Assembly: GCF_016125955.1 (NCBI RefSeq)
Contig: NZ_JADEVE010000191.1
Span: 1 to 56,913 of the forward strand
DNA from: Acetomicrobium sp. S15 = DSM 107314
GTDB taxonomy: Bacteria > Synergistota > Synergistia > Synergistales > Thermosynergistaceae
DNA: 56,913 nucleotides
Direction of reading: 5' to 3'
The position numbers and the translations under genes were made by a program. The notes under the pieces were generated by a model, which searched no databases, was not told the origin of the DNA, and worked only from the letters and a program-made list of their open reading frames with translations. Every line of letters starts with the position of its first letter. Position 1 is the first letter of the stretch. Shown piece by piece: positions 38,100 through 56,744 of the stretch.

Positions 38100-39164
38100 A
38101 TGAAAAGGGGTAAAAGGTTTAGTGTTGTTATTTTGACTTTCGTGCTTGTTATCTTGATGCCCATCGTAGCAGGCGCCGCAGACAAGACTTATACCCTGAA
38201 GTATGCCACCACTGGTCCAGCGGATCCTGTCACCTATACGCCCTATAGTGTTGGTTTTGTTTTCAAGACACTGGTAGAGGCTCAGTCTCAAGGAAAAGTC
38301 AAGGTCGAACTTTTCCCTGGCGGGCAGTTAGGTAACCAAAGGGAGACAATTGAGGGAGTCATGATGGGGACTGTTGAAATAGCTTCGACTAATATAGCGG
38401 CCCTTTCCGGTTTTTTCCCTCCGGCCGATATCTTTTCGATACCCTACCTATTTTCTTCAGATAATGAAGCCATAGCTGTGCTTGACGGTCCGTTTGGAAT
38501 CAAATTTATCGAAGAGATGGCAAAAAAATTGGAGCTTAGAGTTGTTGGTGGGATAAGTCTCCTTGGTTTTAGGCATTTAACCAACAGCGTTAGACCTATA
38601 AAGACTCCAGGTGACGTCAAAGGTTTGAAGTTTAGGACAATGGATACGCCAATTTTCATTGAAATGTTTAAAGCTATGGGTGCACATGCTACACCGATCT
38701 CTATAACAGAAGTGTATTTAGCTCTTCAGCTGGGCACGGTAGATGGCCAGGAAAATCCAGCCAGCGTAACAAGGTCTTACAAGTTCCATGAAGTTCAGAA
38801 ATATATGACCTTAGATGGCCATACTATGGGTATGCAAGTTGCTGTTATGAATGAATCTTATCTCAAATCTCTTCCAGATGAAATTAGGAAGACTATATTG
38901 CGCTGTATGAGAGATGCTGTCGTGAATGTGCGAGGGGTCACCAAGCTAAGCGAGCAGATCGATATTGATGCAATGAGGAATGAAGGATTGCAAATCTACG
39001 CACCCACGGAAGACGAGCTCGAACAATTTAGAAAAATTACACAGCAACCTTGCATAGAGTTGCTAAAAGCTAACATATCTGAAGACTGGATAAATGGCGT
39101 ATTGGGTGCGGTAGAGGAGGCCAAGGAAAAGGTGGAAGCTGAATATAAAAAATTTGTTTTTTAG
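38100..39164 (+). CDS. dctP: TRAP transporter substrate-binding protein (DctP family)
   Basis: 354 residues with a signal peptide (MKRGKRF, hydrophobic core, cleavage near AGAADKTY). DctP features: LKYATTGPADPVTYTPYSVG, VKVELFPGGQLGNQRETIEG, the IPYLFSS motif, GLKFRTMDTPIFIEMFKAMG (conserved arginine for carboxylates) and LQLGTVDGQENPA. It captures an organic acid in the periplasm for DctQM. The ATG follows AAAAAGGGGGAGTGGGGAA. A strong hairpin separates it from dctQ. Confidence 0.93.
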   Translation: MKRGKRFSVVILTFVLVILMPIVAGAADKTYTLKYATTGPADPVTYTPYSVGFVFKTLVEAQSQGKVKVELFPGGQLGNQRETIEGVMMGTVEIASTNIAALSGFFPPADIFSIPYLFSSDNEAIAVLDGPFGIKFIEEMAKKLELRVVGGISLLGFRHLTNSVRPIKTPGDVKGLKFRTMDTPIFIEMFKAMGAHATPISITEVYLALQLGTVDGQENPASVTRSYKFHEVQKYMTLDGHTMGMQVAVMNESYLKSLPDEIRKTILRCMRDAVVNVRGVTKLSEQIDIDAMRNEGLQIYAPTEDELEQFRKITQQPCIELLKANISEDWINGVLGAVEEAKEKVEAEYKKFVF

Positions 39165-39180
39165 TATGCAAGGACAAAAC

Positions 39181-39218
39181 AAGAGTCCTCGTTTGTAGAT
39201 AGACAAACGAGGACTCTT
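39181..39218 (+). terminator. Perfect 16-bp hairpin between dctP and dctQ (attenuator)
   Basis: AAGAGTCCTCGTTTGT (39181-39196) and its exact complement ACAAACGAGGACTCTT (39203-39218) flank a 6-base loop. No T run follows. Its position, 17 bases after the dctP stop, suggests an mRNA-stabilising or partial-termination element that raises binding-protein synthesis over the membrane subunits. Confidence 0.75.
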
Positions 39219-39272
39219 CACTCCCAAGATCAACTATATGTGTGTTTGTCGTTTTTGAAAGGAGCGTTGATC

Positions 39273-39770
39273 GTGCGGAAAGTATACAAGTATGTAACGC
39301 TGACTACACAAGGTTTTCTTGTACTGGCGACTGGTGTTATGGTGGTAATAGTAATACTCGAAGTTGTTTTAAGGTACGGCTTTAATACGGGATTCTCATG
39401 GAGTGAGGAATTGTCCAGGTTCTTGTTTATCGCTTTGAGTTTTATAGGAGCCAGCGAGGCCTTGCGGAGAGGACAACATGTATCCGTTAGTATATTTATA
39501 GATATGTTGCCCAGTGGTGTAAAAAGAAAAGTAAGATTTATAGTGCGTGTTTTTATGGTATTGTTTTTATTATTGTTCGCCTATTCTAGCTTTTTACTGC
39601 TTAAGAAATTTCACTTCCAGTTGGCTCCAGCACTGAGAATCTCCATGGCATGGCCACATAGCGCTCTCTTTTTGGGTGCTATCCTTATGCTGTTTCAATT
39701 GTTATGGGTAATGCTGAAGGGCTCCAATGGAGAAGAGGATTCGAAATCTCTTCTGAAAGATGAGGTGTGA
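39273..39770 (+). CDS. dctQ: TRAP transporter small permease (DctQ)
   Basis: 165 residues, four transmembrane helices. The GTG at 39273 has AAAGGAG eight bases upstream; an ATG at 39240 lacks a site. The family pattern is visible: VVLRYGFNTGFSWSEELSRF, FLFIALSFIGASEALRRGQH and the final helix pair. It forms the membrane complex with DctM. Its stop overlaps the dctM start (GTGA). Confidence 0.9.
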   Translation: MRKVYKYVTLTTQGFLVLATGVMVVIVILEVVLRYGFNTGFSWSEELSRFLFIALSFIGASEALRRGQHVSVSIFIDMLPSGVKRKVRFIVRVFMVLFLLLFAYSSFLLLKKFHFQLAPALRISMAWPHSALFLGAILMLFQLLWVMLKGSNGEEDSKSLLKDEV

Positions 39771-41068
39771 ATATCTTGCCATTGACGGGGCTTGGTATAG
39801 CTTTTATAGCATTTTTGATATTTGGAGCACCTATAGCGTTTGTTTTGGGTTTGGCTTCGGCTACCTATCTTGCTATAGCAGGTAAATTCTCATGGGCTGT
39901 AATGGCGCAGAGGATGTTTTCCATTGTTGATTCTTTTCCATTGTTGGCGGTGCCGTTTTTTATTCTGGCGGCCAAGCTTATGGAAGAAAGCGGGATTTTA
40001 GATTCCCTGCTTGAGCTTGCTGACGCCTTGGTTGGGCATATTAGGGGTGGCCTGGCGCATGTAAACATTGCGGCCAGCATGCTGTTTGCTGGCATAACGG
40101 GGTCTCCTACGGCTGATACTGCTGCTATAGGTTCTATTCTAATTCCAGCTATGGAAAAAGACGGCTATGAAACAGACTTTAGCGCTGCAGTAACTGTAGC
40201 CTCGTCCACAATAGGACCTATTATTCCGCCTAGTATACCGATGGTCATTTATGCTATGTGCGAAGGTCGAGTTTCCGTGGCGGCTCTCTTTTTGGCAGGG
40301 GTAATACCCGGTATTTTGGTAGGTTTGACGCAGATGGTGGTGGCATATTTTATTTCGATTAAGAAGGGTTATTCAGCTACGCGCACAGGATTTGTAAGCC
40401 TCAAAGAGTTTGTTGTTATATTTGCCAGATCGTTTCTTGCCTTGCTGATGCCGTTAATAATATTAGGGGGTATATTCAGCGGAATATTTACTCCTACGGA
40501 AGCAGCCGCTGCTGCGGTTGGTTATGCTTTGATAATTGGCCTTTTTGTTACTCGCAAATTGAAAGTGCGCTCATTGGTACGTCATCTTTTAGATACGGCA
40601 GTTGTTACTTCTGTGGTCATGTTCGTGTTGGCTGGGTCCAGCGTTTTTGGCTGGCTGATAACTGTAGAAATGGTACCCCAACGAATCGCCAATCTGATTT
40701 TAGAGTTCTCGCATAATCCTCTTGTATTTCTTCTGTTGGTTAATATTTTCCTCCTGATCGTGGGATGTTTTATGAACACAACTGCTGCTATTGTAATACT
40801 CACTCCGATACTTAGCCCAATAGCTACATCTTTGGGGATTGATCCTCTGCACTTCGGATTTGTAGTTATAATGAATCTTATTATAGGACAGATCACACCC
40901 CCAGTTGGATCTTGTCTTTTTGTGGTTATGGGGATATGTAATACCACTATGGAACGTGTGACTAAAGCCTTGCTGCCGTTCTTGGCGGTAGAAATAGGGG
41001 TGCTTCTTTTAATTACTTATGTGCCTATTATTACCTTATGGCTGCCTACTATGCTGGGCTTTCATTGA
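39767..41068 (+). CDS. dctM: TRAP transporter large permease (DctM)
   Basis: 433 residues, about 12 helices, GTG start overlapping dctQ. DctM motifs: FPLLAVPFFILAAKLMEESG, LFAGITGSPTADTAAIGSIL, IGPIIPPSIPMVIYAM, GIFTPTEAAAAAVGYAL and IIGQITPPVGSCLFVVMGI. It is the sodium-coupled transport channel of the TRAP system. It is the last gene of the AT-rich first block; iolB with different base composition follows after two short stem-loops. Confidence 0.94.
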   Translation: MNILPLTGLGIAFIAFLIFGAPIAFVLGLASATYLAIAGKFSWAVMAQRMFSIVDSFPLLAVPFFILAAKLMEESGILDSLLELADALVGHIRGGLAHVNIAASMLFAGITGSPTADTAAIGSILIPAMEKDGYETDFSAAVTVASSTIGPIIPPSIPMVIYAMCEGRVSVAALFLAGVIPGILVGLTQMVVAYFISIKKGYSATRTGFVSLKEFVVIFARSFLALLMPLIILGGIFSGIFTPTEAAAAAVGYALIIGLFVTRKLKVRSLVRHLLDTAVVTSVVMFVLAGSSVFGWLITVEMVPQRIANLILEFSHNPLVFLLLVNIFLLIVGCFMNTTAAIVILTPILSPIATSLGIDPLHFGFVVIMNLIIGQITPPVGSCLFVVMGICNTTMERVTKALLPFLAVEIGVLLLITYVPIITLWLPTMLGFH

Positions 41069-41100: not shown

Positions 41101-41142
41101 TTGTGACCGATGAGGTTATTTAAAAAAGGAGGGGGGATGGTT

Positions 41143-41949
41143 ATGTCGTTCCTGGTTAAAAGGCCGGAGGGAGAAGGGTTGATTCCGGTTGTGGAAAAGG
41201 GAAAGATGGAATATGAAAGCTTCGCCCTTCTGAGGGGCAAGGCGGGAGATGTCTTTTCCCTGCCTGTGGCCGATGAGGAAAAGGTGGCGGTCCTCCTTTC
41301 GGGCCAAATTGAGGCTAAGGTGGGCGGCAAAATCTTTTCCACAGGCTATCGGAAGGATGTATTTTCCTCCAACGCCTGGGCTTTCTATGTCCCACCAGGC
41401 ATTGAGGCATCCGTACGGATGCTTTTGCCATCAGAGCTTGCCATAGCTGCAGCACCTGCGACGATTCAAGGCGAGCCGTTTCTCGTTACCCCTGAGGACG
41501 TGCGCGCCAAATCGGCGGGCGTGTGGAACTGGCGCAGAGATGTAAAAGACATAATAGACGGTCGTCACAAGGTAGAAAAATTGATTATAGGCGAAACGAT
41601 AAATGCTCCTGGGAATTGGTCCGGCTGGCCGCCTCACAAACACGATACCGAAAACTTCCCCGTCGAAGTAGTGATGGAAGAGATCTATCACTTTAGGATT
41701 AAGCCTCAAGGGGGTTTCGGGGTGCAGCGCATCTATGACGGAAAGGAATTGGACGAGCTTTACGTCATAAACGACGGCGATACGGTGATGATACCTAAGG
41801 GCTACCACCCCGTCGTTGCCGCTCCCGGCTATTCTCTCTATTATCTCTGGATCTTGTCGGGAAAAACGCGATTTATGGCCCCCTATGAGGATCCTCTCCA
41901 TGTCTGGCAGAGGGGAGCGGAAGCCTTAATACACGAGGTCCTGCGTTAG
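41143..41949 (+). CDS. iolB: 5-deoxy-glucuronate isomerase (IolB)
   Basis: 268 residues, bicupin. The metal site is in WSGWPPHKHDTE (H165, H167) with EEIYHFRIKPQGGFG (E180) and KGYHPVVAAPGYSLYYLW (H222). It isomerises 5-deoxy-D-glucuronate to 2-deoxy-5-keto-D-gluconate in inositol breakdown. The ATG at 41143 is chosen over 41137 and 41110 because of spacing to AAAGGAGGGGGG. No other inositol genes are visible within the window, so the pathway is either elsewhere in the genome or the enzyme has another role. GC-rich codons contrast with dctPQM just before it. Confidence 0.9.
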   Translation: MSFLVKRPEGEGLIPVVEKGKMEYESFALLRGKAGDVFSLPVADEEKVAVLLSGQIEAKVGGKIFSTGYRKDVFSSNAWAFYVPPGIEASVRMLLPSELAIAAAPATIQGEPFLVTPEDVRAKSAGVWNWRRDVKDIIDGRHKVEKLIIGETINAPGNWSGWPPHKHDTENFPVEVVMEEIYHFRIKPQGGFGVQRIYDGKELDELYVINDGDTVMIPKGYHPVVAAPGYSLYYLWILSGKTRFMAPYEDPLHVWQRGAEALIHEVLR

Positions 41950-43484: not shown

Positions 43485-44156
43485 CTATGTCTTCTTATCT
43501 ACATCAACTAACCCACAAGAAATGGCGCGTACGACTGCATCAGTTCTACTTGAAGCACCTAGCTTTTTGATTATGGAAGCCACATGCGCTTTCGCCGTAT
43601 TAGAACTTATATAAAGGTCCTGGGCAATCTGAGCATTAGTTAATCCTTTTGACATCAAATGCAATACTTCTATTTCTCTTGAAGTTAAACTCTCAATATA
43701 TGTTTCATTAACATCTTTTAATACACTATTTATTACTATTCTTGCTATATTTGGACTAATAAAAGTTTTTCCAGAGTTAACAATCCTAATAACCTTTATT
43801 AGCTCTTGCTTATTAATATCTTTTAAAACAAATCCATTTGCCCCTGCTTTTATTGATTGTTCTACATATTGTTTATCGTCATATGCGGTTAATATCACTA
43901 TTTTAGTTTGAGGTGATATCTTTTTGATATTACTAATTATATCATATCCCATACAATCAGGCATTTTAATGTCAAGAAGTATTATATCTGGATTGAAGTT
44001 TTTGCAGCAACTTATAGCAGAGGTTCCATTGGAGCAATCTGCTACTACTTTTATGCTTTTTTCTGATTTAAGTAAGGCTTTTAGACCTTTGCGAACTATA
44101 GGATGATCGTCAACTATGACTACTTTGATAGGATGACTTTCCTTATTCTCTATCAT
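43485..44156 (-). CDS. NarL/FixJ-family response regulator
   Basis: 223 residues. The ATG at 44156 has GGAGG seven bases upstream; the longer frame to 44246 lacks a site. Receiver domain with phospho-acceptor Asp62 (ILLDIKMPD), acidic VVIVDDHP, conserved Thr/Lys (VILTAYDD, GFVLKDI). LuxR-type helix-turn-helix at ~155-215 (LTSREIEVLHLMSKGLTNAQ, AQDLYISSNTAKAHVASI). It is encoded 360 bases downstream of its kinase on the same strand. The natural target is the divergent thiolase-to-nitrilase cluster, an inference from position. Confidence 0.93.
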   Translation of the reverse strand: MIENKESHPIKVVIVDDHPIVRKGLKALLKSEKSIKVVADCSNGTSAISCCKNFNPDIILLDIKMPDCMGYDIISNIKKISPQTKIVILTAYDDKQYVEQSIKAGANGFVLKDINKQELIKVIRIVNSGKTFISPNIARIVINSVLKDVNETYIESLTSREIEVLHLMSKGLTNAQIAQDLYISSNTAKAHVASIIKKLGASSRTDAVVRAISCGLVDVDKKT

Positions 44157-44515
44157 TTTATTGCCTCCAAATATAATATGTAGGAACCTGAGCTTGACCC
44201 AGTCAGATCTTGAGCCTAACAAATGTGATGAAAATAAGCTTTGCATTTTTTAGCTGATATGCTTAGATCAGTTCTTTAGATGGCTTAATATTATATGGTA
44301 GTAATTATGAACAAAAGATTAATCACATGTTATCGCAATTAAACATGTTATAAAAGATCCACAGATATAACTAACTCAGGCTTCCGATCCGCGACTCTTG
44401 CATCGCAAATTTTATCTACTATCCAAACATTGAAGCAAGAAGTAGAATCAGTTGTTATAATTAGATGTTTTTGTTCCGCTTATTTTAATTTATTTTAATT
44501 TAGATAGAAATTTTC
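44157..44515. other. AT-rich gap between regulator and kinase genes
   Basis: About 360 bases without a supportable gene on either strand. Very A/T-rich, with a repeated TTTTAATTTA near 44480-44500. It must hold the ribosome binding site and possibly a separate promoter for the response regulator. I see no clear -35/-10 pair. Confidence 0.5.
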
Positions 44516-46171
44516 CTATGTTAACTGTACACTAAACTGTGAGTTTGCTTGTATAACTGGTTCCAATGGAATAATGGCCCATATTGTAGTACCCTTTCCA
44601 GGCTTAGACTTGATGCGCATTCTGCCATTTATACTATTAACTCTCTCGCTCATCCCGATAAGGCCATACTTATCTTGCCTTTCCAGATATTGTGGGTCTT
44701 TATCCATGGGAAAGCCGACTCCGTTATCCTGGACCACTATCCCCACAAAGGATTTATAGAAGCGAAGAGATATTTTTGCTTCTGAGGCATTAGAATGTCG
44801 GTTTATGTTGTTTAGAGCTTCTTGGACAACCCTGTATATGACGAGCTCATAGCGAGAGGGAAGCCTGCGCTGCGATCCGCGCACATGAATATTTATGCGA
44901 AGCTTGCTTTCGGAGACAGAACCTTCTGCTAGTTTTCTAATCGCTGCGACTACGCCAAGGTCGTCCAATAAGGGTGGACGTAAATTGTTAACAATACGCC
45001 GCATAGCTTTTATAGCTTCTTTGATGCTATCCTTAGTTGCTTTGACATTTTCTATGAGTTCTTGATTATGTGCAGATAATGCTTCTTCACAAGCCTCTAA
45101 GAGGTATGAGGTTGCGGAAAGAAGTTGTAGTGGACTATCATGAAGCTCTGCAGCCAATAGCCTTCTTTCCTCTTCACGCGCATTGATAGTTCTTATTGTG
45201 AGTTCCTTTGAAAGCTTCTCCTTTTCGGCCATAGTTTTGAATAACCGGACATTTGCGATAGCACTACTTAAAGCATTAGCAAAGCTTCGAAGTAGATTTA
45301 ATTTGTCAGGTCCTAAGGGCAATCGTGGGCACCTAATGTACAATAATCCAACGTCTTCGTCATAGATGCTTATTTTGATTATAATCCACTTTTCTAAACG
45401 CCCTTTCAAAGCCTCTCTCGTTATGACTTTTATGATTTTTGGCGTAGAAGAATCTGCAAGCTGTTGAATTTTACCCTTAACTCTATAGGTCAAAGCACTA
45501 AATGCAGTATTGTTACTAATACTATACTCGTACTTTGGATTATATGATACAAAACCGCAGTCGTAAGCTTCAAATATATCTTTAGACCTGTTAGTGACTT
45601 CAGATATAACTCTTGATAAATCATTTGATGAAAATGCAGATGTAGATACTTGATAAACAGATTGTAGATATTTTTTCTGAATAAGCACTTTTGCTTCGTA
45701 CGAATCAATATAACCCATAGCAAGTATAACTCTTGAAGCATCAAGTGCATTCTCTAACTTTTGCAAGATCAGCATAAGGCTCAAAGGAACATAAACCTTG
45801 GTTTGATGAGTTAAATATTCAGATTTGCCGTATGCACATATATTTGATAAAATAATATCCCATATAGCTCTTTTTGTTTGAACGGATACGTCTAAAACTC
45901 CTGAGAGAGGATATCCTTGTTCTGCGCGAAGTCTTCCTATGGTCTTTTGATCTTCGAAAAACGGCGTCGGGTCCTTTATGGAAGCTATTGATAACCTTAC
46001 ATAGATGGAAACCCGCTTGCGTCCCTCCTTTCCGGCGAGAAAGGCTGCATAATCAGGGGTTGCCGCGGGTGAGTTCTGTAAATATTGGATTACCCATTCT
46101 ACTATACTATTTTTATGCGAAGATAATAATTTAATTAGCCAATCTTCTGTATACTTTTCGTATTTCCTCAT
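44516..46171 (-). CDS. Soluble NarX/DegS-type sensor histidine kinase
   Basis: 551 residues and no transmembrane segment. Helical N-terminal sensor region (1-160, with EQGYPLSGVLDVSVQTKRAI as in RsbR/PucR-type input domains), a GAF-like domain (~175-312), HisKA_3 with H344 (REEERRLLAAELHDSPLQLL), and a C-terminal ATPase (N box EALNNINRHS, G1 DNGVGF, G2 GLIGMSERV, GKGTTIWAIIP). Cytoplasmic sensing of a metabolite or redox signal is likely. It partners the downstream NarL-type regulator and is divergent from the thiolase cluster by about 260 bases. Confidence 0.92.
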   Translation of the reverse strand: MRKYEKYTEDWLIKLLSSHKNSIVEWVIQYLQNSPAATPDYAAFLAGKEGRKRVSIYVRLSIASIKDPTPFFEDQKTIGRLRAEQGYPLSGVLDVSVQTKRAIWDIILSNICAYGKSEYLTHQTKVYVPLSLMLILQKLENALDASRVILAMGYIDSYEAKVLIQKKYLQSVYQVSTSAFSSNDLSRVISEVTNRSKDIFEAYDCGFVSYNPKYEYSISNNTAFSALTYRVKGKIQQLADSSTPKIIKVITREALKGRLEKWIIIKISIYDEDVGLLYIRCPRLPLGPDKLNLLRSFANALSSAIANVRLFKTMAEKEKLSKELTIRTINAREEERRLLAAELHDSPLQLLSATSYLLEACEEALSAHNQELIENVKATKDSIKEAIKAMRRIVNNLRPPLLDDLGVVAAIRKLAEGSVSESKLRINIHVRGSQRRLPSRYELVIYRVVQEALNNINRHSNASEAKISLRFYKSFVGIVVQDNGVGFPMDKDPQYLERQDKYGLIGMSERVNSINGRMRIKSKPGKGTTIWAIIPLEPVIQANSQFSVQLT

Positions 46172-46432: not shown

Positions 46433-47593
46433 TTGAGACCAGTAAGTATCATAGGTATAGGATCTACCCCCTTCTCTAAACTTGAGGGGAAAGGCCCCGT
46501 TGACCTTGCCGTTGAGGCTTCTATTCAAGCATTAGGGGATGCTGAAATCCACCCGAAAAAAATCGAAGCTCTCTATCTTGGTAATTTTACTAGCGGTATT
46601 TTAACTGGTCAGGAAATTTTGGGACCACTAGTGGCTAATCGTTTAGGCATGAGGGCAATTCCTTCTATTAAAGCAGAAGGGGCCTGCTCTTCGGCTACCC
46701 TCGCCTTCAGGGAGGGCGTGTTAGCTGTAGCTAACGGTGTACACGAATTAGTCCTTACAGTTGGTGTCGAGAAGATGACTTCTGCTAGCACAAGTAAGGT
46801 AACAGCTGCGTTGGCTTCTGCCTTAGATCAATCCAAAGAGGGTTCTTGTGGACTTACTTTCCCGGGTGTCTTTGCCATGATGGCGAGACGACACATGCAC
46901 GAGTTCGGTACTACGAGAGAACAGATCGCAATGGTCTCCATTAAAAATAGGAAAAATGGAGTAAAAAACCCCCTTGCTCAATTTAGGGCAGAGGTAGCTA
47001 TGGAGAAAATACTGGGAGCTAAACCGGTTACGGAACCGTTCGTTCTGTATGATTGTTGTCCTATAAGTGATGGAGCAGCGGCGGCAATAATATGCCCTAC
47101 GGAAATGGCAAGAAAGTTATCAACTAAAGCGATTTCCATTTTAAGTTGCGAGGTGTCAATAGGTAACGCATCTATTGATATGATGAGTGACATGGTGAGT
47201 TTTCCGGCAACGGTAGAGGCGGCTAAAAAAGCATTTTCGACTGCTGGATTATCTACAAAGGACATCAATTTTGTGGAATTGCATGATTGCTTCACTATTG
47301 CGGAGATCATAGACTCAGAAGACTTAGGATTTTTTGAGAAGGGGGAAGGAGGCTTAGCGCTCGAAAAGGGATTGACTCAAATCGATGGCAAGCTACCTAT
47401 TAACCCGAGCGGTGGCCTTTTGTCCAAGGGTCACCCAGTCGGTGCTACGGGTCTTGGGCAAATATACGAGGTCTGTAAGCAGTTGCGTGGAGAGCATCCA
47501 AATCAACTTGATAATCCTAAGATAGGGCTTGCTCATAACTTGGGCGGTACAGGTGCTGTATGTGCCATAACGATTCTTTCGAGGAATTTTTAA
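46433..47593 (+). CDS. SCP-x-type thiolase / acetyl-CoA acetyltransferase
   Basis: 386 residues. The TTG at 46433 (MRPVSIIGIGSTPF) is six bases after GGGAGGG; an ATG at 46418 begins inside that site and is rejected. Nucleophile Cys85 (AEGACSSATLAF), HDCFTIAEI, and the catalytic His in LLSKGHPVGATGLGQIYE. This non-classical thiolase type commonly pairs with a zinc-ribbon/OB protein, which is the next gene. It would cleave or form a 3-oxoacyl-CoA. First gene of the catabolic cluster. Confidence 0.9.
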   Translation: MRPVSIIGIGSTPFSKLEGKGPVDLAVEASIQALGDAEIHPKKIEALYLGNFTSGILTGQEILGPLVANRLGMRAIPSIKAEGACSSATLAFREGVLAVANGVHELVLTVGVEKMTSASTSKVTAALASALDQSKEGSCGLTFPGVFAMMARRHMHEFGTTREQIAMVSIKNRKNGVKNPLAQFRAEVAMEKILGAKPVTEPFVLYDCCPISDGAAAAIICPTEMARKLSTKAISILSCEVSIGNASIDMMSDMVSFPATVEAAKKAFSTAGLSTKDINFVELHDCFTIAEIIDSEDLGFFEKGEGGLALEKGLTQIDGKLPINPSGGLLSKGHPVGATGLGQIYEVCKQLRGEHPNQLDNPKIGLAHNLGGTGAVCAITILSRNF

Positions 47594-47608
47594 GAGAGGT
47601 GGGTGATT

Positions 47609-47923
47609 ATGGTGGCGCTGCTAAATGGTTTTAAGTGTGAGGAGTGTAGCTGTTTTACACCTTATAAGACTATCCTTTGCCCCAAATGTAGCTCATCCAA
47701 TATTGTTCCGATAGAGTCACAGGGAGCTGGCGAGATTTATACCTTTACCACCATTCATGTTCCTCCTGAAGGTTTCGAGGACAAGGTTCCATACACAGTG
47801 GTAGTAGTTAAACTTGACGAAGGTACCCTTGTATCAGCCTCATGGAGCGGTGAAACCAAACCACAGATAGGACAAAGGGTAGCCTTCCAAGAAATAGCGG
47901 GTAGTAGTTTTGTTTTTAAGTAG
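47609..47923 (+). CDS. Zn-ribbon / OB-fold (DUF35) acyl-CoA-associated protein
   Basis: 104 residues. Zinc ribbon C-x2-C-x10-C-x2-C (KCEECSCF ... LCPKCSS) followed by an OB fold (GEIYTFTTIHVPPEGFEDKV, PYTVVVVKLDEGTLV). Such proteins form complexes with SCP-x thiolases or HMG-CoA synthase-like enzymes and channel the acyl-CoA. The ATG at 47609 is spaced properly from GAGAGGTGGGTG. It lies 15 bases after the thiolase gene. Confidence 0.9.
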   Translation: MVALLNGFKCEECSCFTPYKTILCPKCSSSNIVPIESQGAGEIYTFTTIHVPPEGFEDKVPYTVVVVKLDEGTLVSASWSGETKPQIGQRVAFQEIAGSSFVFK

Positions 47924-47947
47924 CCTTGGCTAAAAGGAGTTTTTGAG

Positions 47948-48361
47948 ATGAAACTATTAGGTATAGATCATATTGGTATATTGGTAAAAAATATTGATAG
48001 TGCTATGAAAGTATATTCTGTTATGGGGTTAAAGCCAGCACTGATAGAGGAAAATGAAGCGTATAAGGTAAAAATTGCCTTTTTGCCTGTAAGTGGTGGA
48101 GTCTTGGTCGAATTGATAGAGCCTATAGGACCGGGGCGATTAAAAGAGCAGCTTGAAAACTACGGCGAAGGAATCGACCATATTGCTTTTAAAGTAGATG
48201 ACATTGAAAAAAGCTTGCGTGAATTGAAGGAACAGGGCATCCCGTTACAGGACGAGACCCCGCAATTAGGTGGAGCTGGTGCAAAAGTTGCCTTTTTGAA
48301 AAAAGAAGGGGCTAATAATGTCTCGATAGAATTAAAAGAAGGAGGTAGCGAAATAGTATGA
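47948..48361 (+). CDS. mce: VOC-family epimerase, methylmalonyl-CoA epimerase-like
   Basis: 137 residues. KLLGIDHIGILVKNIDSAMK (metal His8), VLVELIEPIGPG, GEGIDHIAFKVDDIEKSL (second metal His) and GANNVSIELKE (metal Glu) fit methylmalonyl-CoA epimerase. No methylmalonyl-CoA mutase or carboxylase is next to it, so in this cluster it may epimerise another branched 2-methyl acyl-CoA. Its stop overlaps the next start (ATGA). Confidence 0.85.
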   Translation: MKLLGIDHIGILVKNIDSAMKVYSVMGLKPALIEENEAYKVKIAFLPVSGGVLVELIEPIGPGRLKEQLENYGEGIDHIAFKVDDIEKSLRELKEQGIPLQDETPQLGGAGAKVAFLKKEGANNVSIELKEGGSEIV

Positions 48362-49272
48362 ATAGTAAAAAGGTTACAGATCTTAAGAGTGCTATCAGTG
48401 AAGTGAAGGACGGCATGACGGTCTTTGTTGATGGCTTTGGTTATAACAGGACACCTATGGCGTGTGTGCATGAGATTATAAAACAGCAAGTACAGGGTTT
48501 GTGCACCCTGGGAAGCATAGAAATACAAGCAGACATGTTAATAGGGGCTGACTGTGTCTCTATGCTCGATAACGGTTGGACTGGAGCGGAAGGTTGGCCT
48601 CATGGGAGTTTTTCGTCCTATCCCATGAGGAGGAAAATCGAGGAAGGGAAACTTAAAGTGGAATATTATTCTAATCTAGCCATTGCATGGCGCCTCATCG
48701 GTGCGGCTTATGGATGGAGTTTCGTCCCATTCCCTGGATTTCAGTCATCCGACCATTTTAGGCTTAGGGGGTATCATGGGGAGAATAAAGTCAAGATGAT
48801 AAAATGCCCCTTCACGGGTGAAGATGTTCCCGTATTACCCACCTTTTCTTTAGATGTTGCCATTATTCACGTACAGAAAGCTGATGTAGATGGGAATGCG
48901 ATGATTACTGGACCTTTAGGTTATGCTCGCTCCAGTGCGTTTGCAGCTAAAACTACTATTATCACATGTGAAGAAATAGTGCCGGTTGAATATACGAGGC
49001 AACACATGCACGAAGTTGTGATACCTGGCGCTTTTGTGAAACATGTAGTAGAAGTACCCTTTGGGGCTTACCCAACTGCTTGTCAAGGATATTACGACTA
49101 CGATTGGGATTGGATTAAATACTACTTTGAACAATCGAAAGAGGAGACTACATTCAGAGCATATCTTGATGAGTATGTTTTTGGCTGTAATACGTGGGAA
49201 GATTTTTTAAATAAGGTATTAACCCAAGATAAAAGGAACGAGATAAAAGCAAGTAGTGTTCTTCTTTACTGA
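48358..49272 (+). CDS. CoA-transferase alpha subunit (glutaconate CoA-transferase / IpdA-like)
   Basis: 304 residues. Family I CoA-transferase A fold: SAISEVKDGMTVFVDGFGYN, IKCPFTGEDVPVLPTFSLDV, AIIHVQKADVDGNAMITGPL, CEEIVPVEYTRQ and HVVEVPFGAYPTACQGYYDYD. Closest in layout to GctA and to the steroid-ring hydrolase subunit IpdA. It forms a complex with the beta subunit encoded 26 bases downstream. Because the beta subunit keeps the expected catalytic glutamate, transfer of CoA to an imported acid is the likelier role. Confidence 0.88.
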   Translation: MNSKKVTDLKSAISEVKDGMTVFVDGFGYNRTPMACVHEIIKQQVQGLCTLGSIEIQADMLIGADCVSMLDNGWTGAEGWPHGSFSSYPMRRKIEEGKLKVEYYSNLAIAWRLIGAAYGWSFVPFPGFQSSDHFRLRGYHGENKVKMIKCPFTGEDVPVLPTFSLDVAIIHVQKADVDGNAMITGPLGYARSSAFAAKTTIITCEEIVPVEYTRQHMHEVVIPGAFVKHVVEVPFGAYPTACQGYYDYDWDWIKYYFEQSKEETTFRAYLDEYVFGCNTWEDFLNKVLTQDKRNEIKASSVLLY

Positions 49273-49298
49273 TTCTAATTAAGCGAGGAGGAGAAATT

Positions 49299-50102
49299 AT
49301 GACGAAATATAGCATGGATTATAGCCTTACAGAAATGATGTGCGTGGCAGCCGCCCGTGAAGTTAAAGACGGAGAACGAGTCTTTGCTGGCGCTGGACTT
49401 CCACTTCTAGCTTCGATTGTCGCAAAACGCACTCATGCTCCAAACATTCAAATATGCTTGGAGTCTGGAATAGTTGGTGCTGAGTTTCCCGACGACGAAA
49501 TAAGAGGGAAATCTCCATTGCCTCGTTTCGTTGCGGATCCTAGGATCTTTCCTGGGGCAGTTTATCAATGTGAGCTTTTAGAGATTAATGGCATATTTTT
49601 GACTCAACGCAAGATGGACGTAGGGTTCCTTGGGGGAGCGCAGGTGGATAAGTACGGCAACCTTAATTCTACAATAATAGGAAGTTGGGATAAGCCCAAG
49701 GTCTGGCTTCCCGGCTCTGGTGGTGCAGCAGAAATTGCTATGTTTGCGAATAGGGTTCTAATTATAATGGCACCTCATGATAAACGAAGGTTCTGTGAGA
49801 AAGTAGATTGCATTACCTCTCCTGGATACCTTGAGGGACCGGGCTCAAGGGAAGCTCATGGACTTAAGTGGGGTGGGCCGGAAGCCGTTGTGTCTACTCT
49901 TGGAATATTGAGGTTTGACCCCGATACCAAAGAGATGTATTTAGCTGCAACATATAAAGGCGTAACCGCTGAACAAGTCAAAGAGAATACAAGCTGGGAT
50001 CTGAAGATCTCTTCAAACCTGCAAGAAGTCGAGCCGCCTTATGAGGAGGAAGTGCGGATCATTAGAGAAATAGATAAGGAGGGGTTATTTACATCAAGAT
50101 AG
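49299..50102 (+). CDS. CoA-transferase beta subunit (glutaconate CoA-transferase type)
   Basis: 267 residues. Expected nucleophile Glu55 in QICLESGIVGAEF, with FLGGAQVDKYGNLNST and the glycine-rich WLPGSGGAAEIAMFANRV, then KVDCITSPGYLEGPGSREAH. It would form a glutamyl-CoA thioester intermediate and pass CoA to a carboxylic acid. It starts behind GAGGAGGAGAAATT and is followed by a micro-gene for a membrane peptide. Confidence 0.88.
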   Translation: MTKYSMDYSLTEMMCVAAAREVKDGERVFAGAGLPLLASIVAKRTHAPNIQICLESGIVGAEFPDDEIRGKSPLPRFVADPRIFPGAVYQCELLEINGIFLTQRKMDVGFLGGAQVDKYGNLNSTIIGSWDKPKVWLPGSGGAAEIAMFANRVLIIMAPHDKRRFCEKVDCITSPGYLEGPGSREAHGLKWGGPEAVVSTLGILRFDPDTKEMYLAATYKGVTAEQVKENTSWDLKISSNLQEVEPPYEEEVRIIREIDKEGLFTSR

Positions 50103-50145
50103 CCTTTCGAAGGTGAGAAGTTTTTAGAAAGGAGTGTTGGAGATC

Positions 50146-50256
50146 ATGGGAAAGATGATGATGCTCTTCATAGGATGGTGGATATTCTGGTCTATTGTTC
50201 AGACGGTAGTTGTTTATAGGTTTTCAAAGAGTGCCATCTATACAGAGGCTGAATGA
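50146..50256 (+). CDS. 36-residue single-helix membrane protein before a symporter
   Basis: The frame runs from ATG 50146 (MGKMMMLFIGWWIFWSIVQT, then VVVYRFSKSAIY) to TGA 50254-50256. AAAGGAGTGTTGGAGATC lies upstream. One hydrophobic helix with a W-rich start and a basic/acidic tail is predicted. It ends 21 bases before the sodium symporter start. Small accessory proteins next to SSS symporters are known; this one most likely binds or stabilises the adjacent transporter. I cannot assign a named family. Confidence 0.65.
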   Translation: MGKMMMLFIGWWIFWSIVQTVVVYRFSKSAIYTEAE

Positions 50257-50277
50257 GTTAGGGAGGAGGTTGAATAG

Positions 50278-51756
50278 ATGCCAGTAAGGATGTGGTCATG
50301 GATATTCATGGTTTTGTACTTAGTCGGAGTAGGCTACTTTACCTGGAGAGCATATCTCAAAACAAAAACATTGGCAGACTTTTCTACTGCGGCTCGAAGC
50401 TATGGTTGGTTCATAATCTCTATGGCTACTGTAGCAGCATGGTGTAGCGCAGCTGCGTTTCTTGGACAGCCTGGCATGGGTTATGGCATCGGTTTTCCAG
50501 CCTTGTGGTATGTTATGGGATATGCCTTTTCAGGACTCGGATGGGCCATATCTATGTTTGGCATGTGGCGAGTAGGGGCAAGAGTAAATGCCAAAACCCC
50601 AAGTGATTTTTTGGGCAAGCGCTTCAATAGTGATCTAGTAAAGACTGTAGCATCTTTAATAGTAATATTGAATATATATTATGTTGCAGGGCAATTCGTT
50701 GGCTTGGGATGGCTGTTTGAAACGGCCCTTGGAATACCTTATGTATGGGGGGTCTATATAGCTGCTGGTGTAACGGCTCTATATGTAGTCCTCGGAGGGA
50801 GCCATTCTAGTCTATTGAATCAAGCATATCAGGCCACTATAATGGTTGTGGGAGCTATCATCGTTTTGTTTGTGGCCTTCTTCTTCGCTGTGCCAGGGGG
50901 CGTACATGGTGTAAACGAAGCTATTGTGGCGCAAAACCCGGCACTAGGGTGGGATAATATTTTTAGCACAATAAGTCCGCTTTTTGCGCCATTTCCTGCT
51001 ATTTCTATTTGTATAGGGCTTGGACTTGGGGCGATGTCACCACAGATGTGCAAAAACTTCTTTTCTATTAAAGATAAGAATAATCTTCCGAAAGTCGCAA
51101 TCGCCGGTTTTGTGCTGATGTTTATAATGAGCTTTATGATGCTTGGGGGCATTGGCGCTAGGGCCGCCCTGGGAGATGCATTTATGAAAGCTCCAGATCG
51201 TGCACTCCCTGAGCTTCTTGTTCAGCGCCTCCCAGCTCCAGTTGCAGCTTTTATCGTCATAGGAATGCTTGCGGCAATCATGTCTAGTGCAGGAGCGCTT
51301 TACCTTGCTATATCAAATGCCGTGATTGTAGACCTATATAGAGATATCATAGCTCCTAAGCTATTTAAGACTGTCGATCCAGCTCGCCTGGACAAACAGG
51401 CTCTTTTAATGAGTAGGATATTGATCGTCATCGTAACATTGGCTGGTGTTGCAATTGCCATCCCACCGCCTCCTTACCTTACTGCCTTGATTTGGTCGGG
51501 CCTCGGTGGGATAAGCTGTGCTGTAAGTCCTAGCGTGATTTTAGGCGCAGTATGGCGACGTGTTAACGCAAAAGCCTCTGCTATATCAATGATAGCAAGC
51601 ATTATTGTCTATTTGTATGTCCTTTTTGGCCTCCATCTCCATCCTTATACTGCTCTCGGCATTGGGTGCATAGTATCGTTCCCTCTCATAATTATAATTT
51701 CCTTGGTCACTAAGCCACAGCCCAAGGAATATCTGGTTAAACTCTTTGGCTATTGA
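50278..51756 (+). CDS. Sodium:solute symporter (SSS family)
   Basis: 492 residues, about 13 helices. Typical SSS: DFSTAARSYGWFIISMATVA, AAWCSAAAFLGQPGMGYGIG, NAKTPSDFLGKRFNSDLVK, VVLGGSHSSLLNQAYQATIM, GMLAAIMSSAGALYLAISNA. It imports an organic acid or amide with sodium and is probably the uptake step of the thiolase/CoA-transferase cluster. It starts behind GGGAGGAGGTTGAATAG. The nitrilase-fold gene follows after 49 bases. Confidence 0.9.
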   Translation: MPVRMWSWIFMVLYLVGVGYFTWRAYLKTKTLADFSTAARSYGWFIISMATVAAWCSAAAFLGQPGMGYGIGFPALWYVMGYAFSGLGWAISMFGMWRVGARVNAKTPSDFLGKRFNSDLVKTVASLIVILNIYYVAGQFVGLGWLFETALGIPYVWGVYIAAGVTALYVVLGGSHSSLLNQAYQATIMVVGAIIVLFVAFFFAVPGGVHGVNEAIVAQNPALGWDNIFSTISPLFAPFPAISICIGLGLGAMSPQMCKNFFSIKDKNNLPKVAIAGFVLMFIMSFMMLGGIGARAALGDAFMKAPDRALPELLVQRLPAPVAAFIVIGMLAAIMSSAGALYLAISNAVIVDLYRDIIAPKLFKTVDPARLDKQALLMSRILIVIVTLAGVAIAIPPPPYLTALIWSGLGGISCAVSPSVILGAVWRRVNAKASAISMIASIIVYLYVLFGLHLHPYTALGIGCIVSFPLIIIISLVTKPQPKEYLVKLFGY

Positions 51757-51805
51757 GAACTAAATGCTTTTTATTTCAATGGAAGGATAGATAGGAGGTG
51801 TTTAG

Positions 51806-52699
51806 GTGAAAGAGTTTGTTGTTGCAGGTATACAAATTGCTCCAGTGCAAAACCAGGTAGACGTAAATATAAATAGAGCACTTGAATGGATACCCAAAGC
51901 TATAGAGCTCAATGCAGAGCTGGTTGTTTTCCCAGAGACAGCTACTACTGGATTTGACACAGGTTTGCCTAGGAAAGCGCTATGGGATTTGGTTGACTAT
52001 ATTCCTGGCCGAACAACCGAGGGGATCCAAGCAGCTGCAGCCAAACATAATGTCTATGTGGTATGGCCCACCTATGAACGCGGTGAAGAAGAGGGTGTTA
52101 TTTATAATAGTGCTGTTTTAATAGACAGAACGGGTGAGATTGTCGGTATATATCGCAAAACCCATCCATTCCCTGGTGAGATGGCTCAGTTCGGCGGGTG
52201 GACTACTCCTGGCAGTAGTGTCAATGTCTATGAGACGGACCTGGCTAATATAGGTATAATTATCTGCTACGATGGTGACTTTCCAGATCTTTCTACAACG
52301 CTGGCACTTAAGGGAGCTGAAGTGATAGTTCGTCCATCTGCGTTTCTTCGCACTTTCGACCACTGGTGGGCCACCAACTTTGGCAGGGCTTATGATAATC
52401 ACGCTTATGTGATGGCTGTTAATGCCGTTGGGGCTGATAAGGGAGGCAACTTTTATTTCGGTCATAGCATGATTATATCTCCTAACGGGTGGAAGATAGC
52501 ACAAGGAAGATGCGCTGAAGAGATCGTATATGGCGTGCTTAAACCAGACGCTCTAAAATATGTTTATGGCGGCATGACAAGCCTTCAGTCCTTTGATCAT
52601 CTGGAAGATAGAAACCTCGGTGTTTACAATGTGATGCAACCAGGAAAGTCCATGTTTGAGCCAGGCAATCATGTAAGAGCAAGATTTAAGAAAGTATAA
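51806..52699 (+). CDS. Carbon-nitrogen hydrolase (nitrilase-fold amidase)
   Basis: 297 residues, GTG start. Catalytic triad E44 (VVFPETATTG), K118 (IYRKTHPFPGE) and C154 (IIICYDGDFPD), with RAYDNHAYVMAVNAVG and FGHSMIISPNGWKIA. It hydrolyses an amide, carbamoyl compound or nitrile. Being last in the cluster, after the symporter, it may release ammonia from the imported substrate before CoA transfer. An aliphatic amidase, omega-amidase or N-carbamoyl amino acid hydrolase are all possible. Confidence 0.92.
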   Translation: MKEFVVAGIQIAPVQNQVDVNINRALEWIPKAIELNAELVVFPETATTGFDTGLPRKALWDLVDYIPGRTTEGIQAAAAKHNVYVVWPTYERGEEEGVIYNSAVLIDRTGEIVGIYRKTHPFPGEMAQFGGWTTPGSSVNVYETDLANIGIIICYDGDFPDLSTTLALKGAEVIVRPSAFLRTFDHWWATNFGRAYDNHAYVMAVNAVGADKGGNFYFGHSMIISPNGWKIAQGRCAEEIVYGVLKPDALKYVYGGMTSLQSFDHLEDRNLGVYNVMQPGKSMFEPGNHVRARFKKV

Positions 52700-53780: not shown

Positions 53781-54866
53781 ATGAAGGCGAAAGCGGTGTC
53801 TGTTTTGAAGGATCTCGTTTCTATCGACGGCGTTTCGGGGTTTGAGAAACCGGTGGCAGATTATATAAGCTCCCGCCTTTCGCGGTTATCTGTGGGCGTA
53901 AGGAGAGACGTCATGGGAAACGTGCTTGCCAGCCTTCGCTTAGGTAACGGCGAGCCCTCGCTCAAGTTGATGTTTTGTGCCCACATGGACGAGGTGGGTT
54001 TGATGGTGAAGGGCGTAGAGCCAGATGGTTTTATCAGGTTCGAGAAGGTGGGGGTTATCCCAGACGCTTTCCTTCCGAGAACGCCCGTCAGGATAAAGGG
54101 GATAAACGGCACCATCGGCACGAGGCCCGGTTACCTGATGGAAGGTTCGGATAAGCCTCATAGCGCGAGGGACATGTATGTGGACGTGGGGGTTTGCAGC
54201 TCAAAGGAGATATCTGATCTTGGCATAGAGGTTGGAGACCCCATATCCTTCGCGACGGCTTTTTCCCCGACGGGAAACCCCGACAGAGTCATAGCTAAAG
54301 CCGTTGACGACAGAGCAGGCTGCGCCGCCCTTTTGCTTTTGGCCGAGCTTCTGTCGTGTCAAGATTTTAGCGGCTACCCCTCGTCGGCCGAAGTCGTTTT
54401 AGCCTTCACCGCTCAAGAGGAGGTGGGGTGCAGGGGGGCTGTCGCAGCGGCCGCGGCGGTGCGCCCCGATTGCGCCTTTGTGCTGGATACCGTCCCCTCT
54501 GGAGACACGCCCGACGCCAGCATGACCAAGGATATAAACGCCCGTCTCGGGGGTGGGGTGGTGATACCCGTCATGAGCGGCGGGGTGAGCATGGGCGAGA
54601 TAATGGCTGAACCGATTAAGCGGCTACTGCGGGATGTGGCGGACAAGAAGGGCATACTTTATCAGCTTGCCATACTCCCGGTGGCTGCCACAGACTCGTC
54701 TGCCATAAAGACGTCAGGGGAAGGAGTGCCCGTAGGAACTATAGGCATTCCCAGGCGTTATGCCCATTCGCCCGTGGAGTTGGTAGACCTGAACGACATT
54801 ATATCCGCCACGCAGTTGGCTTTGGGTTTAACCGAGAGATTGCTCGAGGGGGTAAAACTTCGATGA
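53781..54866 (+). CDS. M42 family glutamyl aminopeptidase/endoglucanase-like metallopeptidase
   Basis: 361 residues. Di-metal aminopeptidase: LMFCAHMDEVGLMVKG (metal His/Asp), IAKAVDDRAGCAALLLLAEL (bridging Asp), AFTAQEEVGCRGA (catalytic Glu and metal Glu), FVLDTVPSGDTPD and IGIPRRYAHSPVELVD (metal His). It forms tetrahedral dodecameric peptidases in relatives and trims peptides in the cytosol. The stop overlaps the next gene as ATGA. With the symporter downstream it suggests peptide or amino acid use. Confidence 0.92.
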   Translation: MKAKAVSVLKDLVSIDGVSGFEKPVADYISSRLSRLSVGVRRDVMGNVLASLRLGNGEPSLKLMFCAHMDEVGLMVKGVEPDGFIRFEKVGVIPDAFLPRTPVRIKGINGTIGTRPGYLMEGSDKPHSARDMYVDVGVCSSKEISDLGIEVGDPISFATAFSPTGNPDRVIAKAVDDRAGCAALLLLAELLSCQDFSGYPSSAEVVLAFTAQEEVGCRGAVAAAAAVRPDCAFVLDTVPSGDTPDASMTKDINARLGGGVVIPVMSGGVSMGEIMAEPIKRLLRDVADKKGILYQLAILPVAATDSSAIKTSGEGVPVGTIGIPRRYAHSPVELVDLNDIISATQLALGLTERLLEGVKLR

Positions 54867-55072
54867 ATGCGGGATCAAGATCAAGAGGCGCAAGAAGCAG
54901 GGCGTTCTTCATCATGTACGCAGTCCTGGTGCTGTGCGGCCTTTGGCCCGTCATAGCGATCTTCAACAGGCCCGTGTTATTTTTGGGGTTGCCACTGCTT
55001 GAGGTCTGGAGCTTCTTCGTGGCTATAGCGACTGCCGTTGTGTTGTTTTTGGCTGACATTAGGGGGGATTAG
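54863..55072 (+). CDS. Small two-helix membrane protein (DUF3311-like), symporter partner
   Basis: 69 residues: a basic N terminus (GSRSRGARSRA) then two hydrophobic helices (FFIMYAVLVLCGLWPVIAIF; LEVWSFFVAIATAVVLFLAD). This is the typical form of the small DUF3311 proteins encoded directly before SSS symporters. It overlaps the peptidase stop and ends three bases before the symporter ATG, so the three genes are one tightly coupled operon. Confidence 0.8.
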   Translation: MNAGSRSRGARSRAFFIMYAVLVLCGLWPVIAIFNRPVLFLGLPLLEVWSFFVAIATAVVLFLADIRGD

Positions 55073-55075
55073 CGC

Positions 55076-56530
55076 ATGCCGATTCAATTTTGGATCACAC
55101 TCGGGTATGTGGGCGTGGCTATAGCGATAGGCGTGACCTCCGCCAGAGGGCGCATCATGTCAAAGGTGGAAGAGTGGGGTTTGGCGGGTCATACTATGGG
55201 CTTTATGGTTATGTATTTCTTGAACGCCGCCGGGATCATAAGCGCCTTTTCCATGTTGGGGGCTCCGGGTTTCGCCTATGTCCACGGAGTGGCAATATGT
55301 TATCTCGTAATCTACGTGGCGTTGCAGGAAATAATAGCTTTTCACGTGGCACCCAAGGTGTGGGAAATGGGATTTCGCATGGGGCATCTCACTCAGGCCC
55401 AAGCCGTGGCTGAGCGCTACGAAAGCCCGTTTTTGGGCGCTGCTTTTGCCGTAGTAACGTCCTTTGGTCTCATAGCCTATGCCGTAACTCAGGCCATGGG
55501 GTGCGCCTACGTCTTAAACGCCGTTAGCGGCGGGTGTCTCTCCATGGGTTTAGGAACTTCCATAGTGATGGCGAGCATGGCAGCTTATATCTTCATAGGC
55601 GGCATGAGGGCCATAGGGTGGACCAACGTCTTTCAGGGAATCCTCATGTTTGTGATGGCTTGGGTCGCTGGCATCTGGGTGGCGAAAGCCGCCTTCGGCT
55701 CGTGGTGGTTCGGCGAGATCTTTCGCTCGCTGGCGGAGAGTTCCCCAAAGCATTTGACGCTGCCCGGGCCCATGGGCGCGTGGTCATATCGTTTTTTCAG
55801 CAGTTCCGTAATAGTTTCGACCCTGTCCGTATGGCCCACAGGCTGGGTGTGGTGGATGGGGGCAAAGGACTTAAAGATCCTTCGCAGGTCTATAGCACTC
55901 ATGCCGTTGTTTCTCTTCATCTTAATCCCTACGCTCTCCCTCGGCTTTGCGGCCATAACATTAATCCCAGGGCTCAAGGTGCCCGACCAGGCCGCGCTTG
56001 CCGTGGCAAACGCCTACCTTCCTCCGATCCTTGCGGGTCTCCTCGGGGCGGGCGTTTTGGCTGCCGCCATGTCATCGGCGGAGCCGTGCCTCCACGTTAC
56101 TGCCTTGACCTATGCTGTCGACGTGATATCCCCCGTCGCCAAGCTCTCAAAGGAGCAATGCGCTAAAATTGCGCGGACCCTTACCGTGGTAGTAGCGCTC
56201 TGCATCGTTTTGCCTCTGGCACTCTTAAGGCCGGCAAGTCTTGTATACGTCACGCTTATAGGCTACGGATTTTTGGGCCAATCGTTCCCCGCCCTGATGG
56301 GCGTGTTGTTCTGGCGCTGGGCCACGCGCGCGGGAGCGCTCTCCGGGCTTTTGACGGGTTTTGCCGTCACTACTGCTTTGTCTGTGGCCAAGTCTCATCC
56401 CATGGGGATACACGCTGGCGCTTGGGGGTTGGCCGCAAACTTCGTCGTCTTTTTAATCGTGAGCTATTACACTGGATCGCAGCAGAAGGCGATAGGGCGC
56501 TTCTTCCCTCACTTAAAACGCAAACCGTAA
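55076..56530 (+). CDS. Sodium:solute symporter (SSS family)
   Basis: 484 residues, about 13 helices. EEWGLAGHTMGFMVMYFLNA, GIISAFSMLGAPGFAYVHG, TQAQAVAERYESPFLGAAFA, FIGGMRAIGWTNVFQGILM and GVLAAAMSSAEPCLHVTALT (TM8 region) are SSS features. Encoded with an M42 peptidase and DUF3311-like protein, it may import an amino acid or small peptide, but substrate is not readable. Little sequence is available after it before the CRISPR-like repeats. Confidence 0.9.
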   Translation: MPIQFWITLGYVGVAIAIGVTSARGRIMSKVEEWGLAGHTMGFMVMYFLNAAGIISAFSMLGAPGFAYVHGVAICYLVIYVALQEIIAFHVAPKVWEMGFRMGHLTQAQAVAERYESPFLGAAFAVVTSFGLIAYAVTQAMGCAYVLNAVSGGCLSMGLGTSIVMASMAAYIFIGGMRAIGWTNVFQGILMFVMAWVAGIWVAKAAFGSWWFGEIFRSLAESSPKHLTLPGPMGAWSYRFFSSSVIVSTLSVWPTGWVWWMGAKDLKILRRSIALMPLFLFILIPTLSLGFAAITLIPGLKVPDQAALAVANAYLPPILAGLLGAGVLAAAMSSAEPCLHVTALTYAVDVISPVAKLSKEQCAKIARTLTVVVALCIVLPLALLRPASLVYVTLIGYGFLGQSFPALMGVLFWRWATRAGALSGLLTGFAVTTALSVAKSHPMGIHAGAWGLAANFVVFLIVSYYTGSQQKAIGRFFPHLKRKP

Positions 56531-56580: not shown

Positions 56581-56744
56581 TTCAGTATATGCTTCATCTG
56601 CATGGGGGCGACCAACGCGCCTATAGCAGCCCGCATCCGACACAAGGTTTCAATCCACGCCCCCGCGTGGGGGGCGACAATATACTTGAATTTATAAAGG
56701 CCGGGGAATCTGGTTTCAATCCACGCCCCCGCGGGGGGGGCGAC
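56581..56744 (-). CRISPR. Very short type I-C-like CRISPR array (two intact repeats, one degenerate)
   Basis: Two 32-base repeats at 56647-56678 and 56713-56744 differ by one base (position 22, T or G). As given they begin GTTTCAATCCACGCCCCCGC and end GGGGGGCGAC. Reversed, they begin GTCGCCCCCC and end GTGGATTGAAAC, the type I-C form, so the array is likely transcribed leftward. The 34-base spacer is 56679-56712. A third, degenerate repeat at 56581-56612 keeps only the nine-base GGGGGCGAC end and is separated by another exact 34-base spacer (56613-56646). Degeneration at that side fits the distal end. The leader would be right of 56744. No cas gene is in the window. Confidence 0.85.

Follow-up and report, generated by a model that had tools for sequence, protein, structure and literature searches.

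The window analyzed here is the whole of contig NZ_JADEVE010000191.1 (C191; 56,913 bp) from the 2.44-Mb genome of Acetomicrobium sp. S15 = DSM 107314, a member of the Synergistota; comparisons within the phylum drew on a sample of 188 genomes. Positions 46433-52699 of the forward strand carry seven co-directional, closely spaced genes and a 36-codon open reading frame (ORF), recognized from the ORF listing and from Pfam and NCBI models, and a histidine kinase and response regulator are transcribed divergently from this thiolase-first operon. The best explanation of the locus is a horizontally acquired, A+T-rich catabolic island that brings its own two-component control. We read it, with a probability of roughly one-half, as encoding a route for a 2-substituted 3-oxo acid: Na+-coupled uptake, amide hydrolysis, coenzyme A (CoA) transfer, epimerization at C2, and thiolysis. 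Catabolic operons that pair a 3-oxo-acid CoA-transferase with a thiolase are of a known kind, as are all of the parts found here; no second instance of the combination turned up in the searches made.

Gene Content and Composition of the Island

A preliminary description of this DNA had listed seven genes, a micro-ORF, and a divergent kinase/regulator pair, and each was found where it had been placed. The features are as follows (GC3, G+C content at third codon positions; strandless elements are given without a sign):

43485-44246, minus strand: NarL/FixJ-type response regulator; receiver plus LuxR helix-turn-helix, Pfam Response_reg and GerE above cut-off; GC3 0.25
44516-46171, minus strand: soluble histidine kinase; HisKA_3 and HATPase_c, phospho-acceptor His344, N-terminal sensor part of ~330 residues
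46337-46378: two 18-nt direct repeats; candidate regulator sites
46433-47593, plus strand: archaeal/SCP2-type thiolase; Thiolase_C_1, the type working with DUF35 proteins; Cys/His motifs
47603-47923, plus strand: DUF35/ChsH2-type Zn-ribbon OB-fold protein, thiolase partner; Pfam OB_ChsH2_C 57.5 bits, CxxC...CxxC
47948-48361, plus strand: VOC-fold protein, methylmalonyl-CoA-epimerase-like; TIGR03081 83.4 bits (cut-off 114.95)
48358-49272, plus strand: CoA-transferase alpha subunit, glutaconate CoA-transferase family; Pfam CoA_trans 87.6 bits, GctA (1poi) E 1.7e-37
49299-50102, plus strand: CoA-transferase beta subunit; predicted catalytic Glu55, GctB (1poi) E 6e-54
50146-50256, plus strand: 36-codon ORF with one predicted membrane helix, from ribosome-binding site and hydropathy; putative small symporter partner
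50278-51756, plus strand: SSS-family sodium:solute symporter; Pfam SSF 152 bits, 12 hydrophobic segments
51806-52699, plus strand: nitrilase-superfamily amidase; Pfam CN_hydrolase 171.6 bits, E44/K118/C154
52778-52832: perfect 25-bp inverted repeat with a 5-nt loop, occurring once in the genome; likely terminator

For the thiolase gene, the TTG at 46433, with a GGGAGG site upstream, is a better start than the ATG at 46418, which has no such site; purine-rich ribosome-binding sites precede most of the other starts in the cluster, and the VOC and CoA-transferase alpha genes overlap by 4 nt. The 25-bp palindrome, which occurs only once in the genome, is located about 80 bp 3' of the amidase gene and is probably the terminator that closes the cluster. 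Its GC content of 33-46%, its GC3 of 0.25-0.49, and this palindrome after the last gene set the cluster apart from a fortuitous series of genes.

The GC3 range of 0.25-0.49 covers all ten island genes, including the two-component pair, compared with mostly 0.55-0.74 for genes outside low-GC patches. An acquired island is indicated by this low GC3 together with the relationships of the encoded proteins: across the phylum sample no close relative was found for the symporter or the CoA-transferase alpha subunit, a threshold of E <= 1e-40 gave no relative of the kinase among the other 187 genomes, and the best relative of the thiolase is only 48% identical. The amidase is the exception, with a paralogue of 74% identity in the host genome and a relative of 75% identity in a sister species. 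A scan of 84,980 species genomes for the CoA-transferase alpha subunit, which requires exact 8-residue matches and reaches near relatives only, gave one match, in a glutarate/glutaconate operon of a Desulfobacteraceae metagenome-assembled genome. No second copy of the full gene set was found in the 188 genomes or in searches of plasmids, mostly of other phyla, a result that holds within the reach of searches whose genome-wide part covered this phylum and that is no proof of uniqueness. The set that the preliminary description had grouped into one pathway is thus not co-conserved as a whole across these genomes and plasmids. This lack of co-conservation, taken together with the foreign base composition, is better explained by an acquired island than by an artefact.

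Elsewhere in its genome the host carries a methylmalonyl-CoA epimerase/mutase operon, three thiolases of the classical kind, and two pairs of SCOT-type CoA-transferase genes, with a thiolase adjoining one pair. Since the host has equivalents of its own, the island is an additional, alien set beside the host enzymes, and plain acetoacetate is accordingly a less likely substrate for it. The idea that the island encodes the only thiolase of the genome was rejected in view of the three classical ones.

Catalytic Proteins

The thiolase and the DUF35 protein both have their best Protein Data Bank (PDB) match in the archaeal acetoacetyl-CoA thiolase complex 6esq, the DUF35 protein matching its DUF35 chain. 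The nucleophilic Cys and the HDCF and GHPVGATG motifs of the thiolase are intact, and the ribbon cysteines of its partner lie at positions 12, 15, 26, and 29. A thiolase of the Thiolase_C_1 type adjacent to an OB_ChsH2 protein with CxxC...CxxC is the arrangement of a DUF35-dependent thiolase. The classical thiolase model TIGR01930 scores 97.8 bits against a cut-off of 240.55, and the PcaF model is absent from the best 25 model matches. The island resembles the 6esq complex in thiolase, DUF35 protein, catalytic residues, and Zn ribbon, but that complex includes 3-hydroxy-3-methylglutaryl-CoA (HMG-CoA) synthase, a gene that the cluster lacks and that is not found among the ORFs of 43-53 kb.

The CoA-transferase is of the class I glutaconate type: both subunits have a CoA_trans domain above the Pfam cut-off, and Glu55 of the beta subunit, previously put forward as the nucleophile, does align with the conserved Glu of GctB and its homologues. 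Models of the SCOT/AtoDA type failed (TIGR02429, 49.3 bits, cut-off 128.5; TIGR02428, 44.5 bits, cut-off 243.55). GctAB is the closest solved structure for both subunits and shares the catalytic Glu; however, the island enzyme branches in a tree outside the GctAB enzymes used by other members of the phylum and lacks hydroxyglutarate/glutaconate pathway neighbors, and hence is not GctAB proper.

In the VOC protein all four metal-ligand positions are kept (His8, Glu55, His78, and Glu128, within the motifs DHIG, VELIEP, DHIAF, and SIEL), being aligned with chains of 3oa4 and 6xbr or situated in the expected motifs. It has the VOC fold and these four positions in common with methylmalonyl-CoA epimerases (TIGR03081) but scores 31 bits below the cut-off of that family, and by this model it is not a methylmalonyl-CoA epimerase. 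The host's proper epimerase (168 bits) is encoded on another contig (C215) with mutase and decarboxylase genes and is 44% identical to the island protein, which we therefore rejected as the host's methylmalonyl-CoA epimerase. The Glu-Lys-Cys triad of the nitrilase superfamily is present in the amidase as E44/K118/C154, the positions originally assigned, and is invariant across six homologues.

Transport and Regulation

The symporter is panF-like, yet below the equivalog cut-off. Its four nearest relatives among those found are all on haloarchaeal plasmids (31-33% identity), and each is directly preceded by a 43-46-codon ORF with one predicted helix, which has 1 base in common with the start of the symporter gene:

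L072, 5840-5980: tiny ORF before symporter
L073 and L092, 5852-5983: tiny ORF before symporter
L093, 5846-5983: tiny ORF before symporter

As background, such ORFs are listed before four of 127 haloarchaeal genes in the same loci, three of the four being these symporters. The 36-residue protein of the window is like the haloarchaeal ORFs in position and design, with no clear sequence similarity, and has no Pfam or NCBIfam match at E <= 1, including known SSS small-partner families such as DUF3311. One-helix proteins of similar size regulate other transporters (PMC10710835), and we consider the micro-protein a putative small partner of the symporter. Tiny one-helix ORFs of this kind, next to related symporters in Bacteria and Archaea alike, may encode a transporter subunit so far unrecognized. 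Farther along the window, at 54863-56530, a 69-residue membrane ORF with a very weak DUF3311 match directly precedes a second SSS symporter, related to PanF/MctP.

The nearest NCBI models to the response regulator are MadR, NarL, and MctR, each below its cut-off. The kinase was described as soluble and of GAF type; the former agrees with the absence of any hydrophobic or membrane segment from its sequence, whereas for the latter Pfam offers no GAF match and only a sub-threshold match to DUF3369. A structure model of the kinase (mean pLDDT, the predicted local distance difference test score, 38) was too poor for use. Upstream of the thiolase start, at a distance of 55-96 nt, are two 18-nt direct repeats that are spaced 24 nt apart and match at 15 of 18 positions; a match this good was equalled in 5 of 300 dinucleotide shuffles, and the repeats are no more than suggestive as candidate sites for the regulator.

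Gene Neighborhoods in Other Genomes

A parallel in composition is a run of genes on a plasmid of Halocatena marina: a short-chain dehydrogenase/reductase (SDR), a small membrane protein, an SSS symporter, a thiolase, an OB protein, and CoA-transferase alpha and beta subunits. Five functional parts (SSS symporter, thiolase, OB-fold protein, and the two CoA-transferase subunits) are shared with the island, at identities of 35% for the thiolase, 34-38% for the CoA-transferase, and 25% for the symporter, whereas the SDR and this membrane protein, larger than the micro-protein, stand in place of the island's VOC protein, amidase, and micro-protein. Because the symporters are only 25% identical, this is a parallel in composition and not orthology. 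A plasmid of Halorientalis litorea likewise has CoA-transferase alpha and beta, OB-fold, and thiolase genes together. Within the phylum, one genome (G073; L099, 7900-15800) encodes a glutaconate-type CoA-transferase that groups with that of the island in the tree. Genes for a classical thiolase, a metallo-amidohydrolase, and an SSS symporter come after it, and this operon is the same plan built of different parts. The same run also holds a DUF6282 protein and an enoyl-CoA hydratase.

Other homologues of the CoA-transferase adjoin 3-oxoadipyl-CoA thiolase in pca/cat operons. The lower beta-ketoadipate pathway (PcaIJ/CatIJ and PcaF) thus resembles the island in having a homologous CoA-transferase beside a thiolase, but PcaF is a classical thiolase without DUF35, a class from whose model the island thiolase is far removed, and the pca/cat stretches contain no VOC protein, amidase, or SSS symporter. 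The enzymes of the ato system comprise a CoA-transferase and a thiolase, with a transporter, for a short-chain 3-oxo acid. In make-up the island, with two CoA-transferase subunits, a transporter, and a thiolase under two-component control, corresponds to this operon. In Escherichia coli it consists of atoDAEB with the AtoSC two-component system (PMC3118216). The families differ, however: SCOT-type CoA-transferase, AtoB, AtoE, and an AtoC/NtrC-type regulator in the ato operon, as against glutaconate-type CoA-transferase, DUF35-type thiolase, SSS (SSF) transporter, and NarL-type regulator with Response_reg and GerE domains in the island, which in addition has the VOC protein and the amidase. The literature yielded nothing relevant on a glutaconate-type CoA-transferase with thiolase and DUF35 protein, or on amide catabolism in Synergistetes.

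The amidase family was surveyed at 13 loci of the phylum outside the window, two of them in the host and the sister species. A CaiB-type CoA-transferase is in the neighborhood at 10 of these loci and a PucR-type regulator at 11; at 7, the amidase stands beside homologues of all three of AllF, AllG, and AllH plus a cyclase. Because of the recurrent CaiB-type enzyme, the acid released by this amidase family probably goes to a CoA-transferase, a place filled in the island by the glutaconate-type enzyme.

The seven loci with the full set (L049, 2505-11031; L048, L053, L054, L055, L061, and L064) belong to seven genomes, including that of the host, and combine the amidase with AllF/AllG/AllH, the CaiB-type CoA-transferase, and a cyclase-family hydrolase. 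In E. coli AllFGH serves as oxamic transcarbamylase, and oxamate is an end product there (PMC11326118). To judge from these neighborhoods, the amidase in the AllFGH loci could be an oxamate amidohydrolase that takes ureide breakdown on to oxalate and oxalyl-CoA.

Predicted Pathway and Alternatives

From the gene order, the protein families, and the intact catalytic residues we infer a sequence of steps acting in the direction of thiolysis on a C2-substituted 3-oxo acid. The kinase/regulator pair would sense a small organic acid and activate the operon that diverges from it. Import of the acid or its amide with Na+ would fall to the SSS symporter, probably together with the one-helix protein of 36 residues, and the amidase would convert the carboxamide to the free acid and ammonia. 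CoA would then be transferred from an acyl-CoA onto the acid by the glutaconate-type CoA-transferase via Glu55. The VOC protein is predicted to epimerize the resulting 3-oxoacyl-CoA at C2, where the hydrogen, acidic between two carbonyls, is chemically like that of methylmalonyl-CoA; finally, the thiolase with its DUF35 partner would cleave the 3-oxoacyl-CoA to acetyl-CoA or propionyl-CoA and a shorter acyl-CoA. If this is correct, it illustrates how an anaerobe that lives by fermentation can acquire, in a single step and with the regulation included, a further source of carbon and nitrogen. Two enzyme functions then become directly testable: the epimerization of 2-substituted 3-oxoacyl-CoA, and the substrate of an amidase family common in the phylum.

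At the level of reaction types this reading is reasonable. The logic of uptake, amide hydrolysis, CoA transfer, epimerization, and thiolysis had already been proposed in the preliminary description, with a branched keto acid amide or a lactam-derived acid as one guess at the substrate, and it gains from the intact catalytic residues, the CoA-transferase at 10 of 13 amidase loci, and the haloarchaeal core; it loses in that the set is not co-conserved and the epimerase is not of the methylmalonyl type by the NCBI model. Several points weigh against it. The cluster contains no dehydrogenase, so a 3-oxo group must be present in the substrate from the outset; the VOC protein could have another substrate, or be no epimerase at all; the complete set occurs in no other genome searched, which leaves co-inheritance as one pathway unsupported; and the nearest relatives of the amidase are in oxamic transcarbamylase operons, so that it may not act on the amide of a 3-oxo acid. 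A fuller version is possible but doubtful: an undescribed pathway that joins amide hydrolysis and CoA activation to C2 epimerization by a VOC enzyme specific for 2-substituted 3-oxoacyl-CoA and to DUF35-dependent thiolysis, with an SSS symporter that needs a one-helix subunit of 36-46 residues.

The locus might instead be a plain short-chain 3-oxo-acid island, of the acetoacetate or 3-oxoadipate type, with the VOC protein and the amidase as helpers or as passengers belonging to another reaction. Its CoA-transferase, thiolase, transporter, and two-component system are what an ato operon is made of (PMC3118216), homologues of its CoA-transferase lie in pcaIJ/catIJ-pcaF operons, and the acetoacetyl-CoA thiolase complex is the best PDB match for thiolase and DUF35 protein alike. 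We find this rather unlikely: the host already has its two SCOT-type pairs, one adjoining a classical thiolase; the VOC gene overlaps that of the CoA-transferase by 4 nt; and the amidase gene has the same spacing and composition as the rest. Focusing on the amidase, which is 74-75% identical to paralogues in the operons with AllFGH homologues and CaiB CoA-transferase, one could picture a dicarboxylate monoamide route, in which an amidase for oxamate or a related monoamide supplies a dicarboxylate to the CoA-transferase and the thiolase pair serves for condensation or a side reaction. The nearest PDB enzyme to the CoA-transferase, glutaconate CoA-transferase, is indeed a dicarboxylate enzyme. 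The chance of such a route nevertheless seems small, since oxalyl-CoA and other dicarboxyl-CoAs without a 3-oxo group are no thiolase substrates and the first gene of the operon encodes a thiolase with intact catalytic residues. That the thiolase condenses, and that the cluster serves to build a branched acyl product instead of breaking one down, is very improbable; synthetic DUF35-thiolase complexes do exist among the PDB matches, such as archaeal acetoacetyl-CoA thiolase and PhlABC, but the cluster has neither HMG-CoA synthase nor a reductase nor any other gene for a later synthetic step, and the company of a CoA-transferase, an amidase, and a Na+ symporter next to a two-component system indicates that a compound is taken up and degraded.

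Other Features of the Contig

A second low-GC patch (GC3 0.37-0.44) spans 37148-41068 of the window and contains an NAD-dependent oxidoreductase-like gene and a TRAP transporter (DctP, a gene of the size of a small subunit, and DctM). It is perhaps a separate acquired uptake cassette. An iolB homologue follows it at 41110-41949. Near the end of the contig, at 56646-56744, two 33-nt repeats (GGTTTCAATCCACGCC...) 66 nt apart are likely the edge of a clustered regularly interspaced short palindromic repeat (CRISPR) array.

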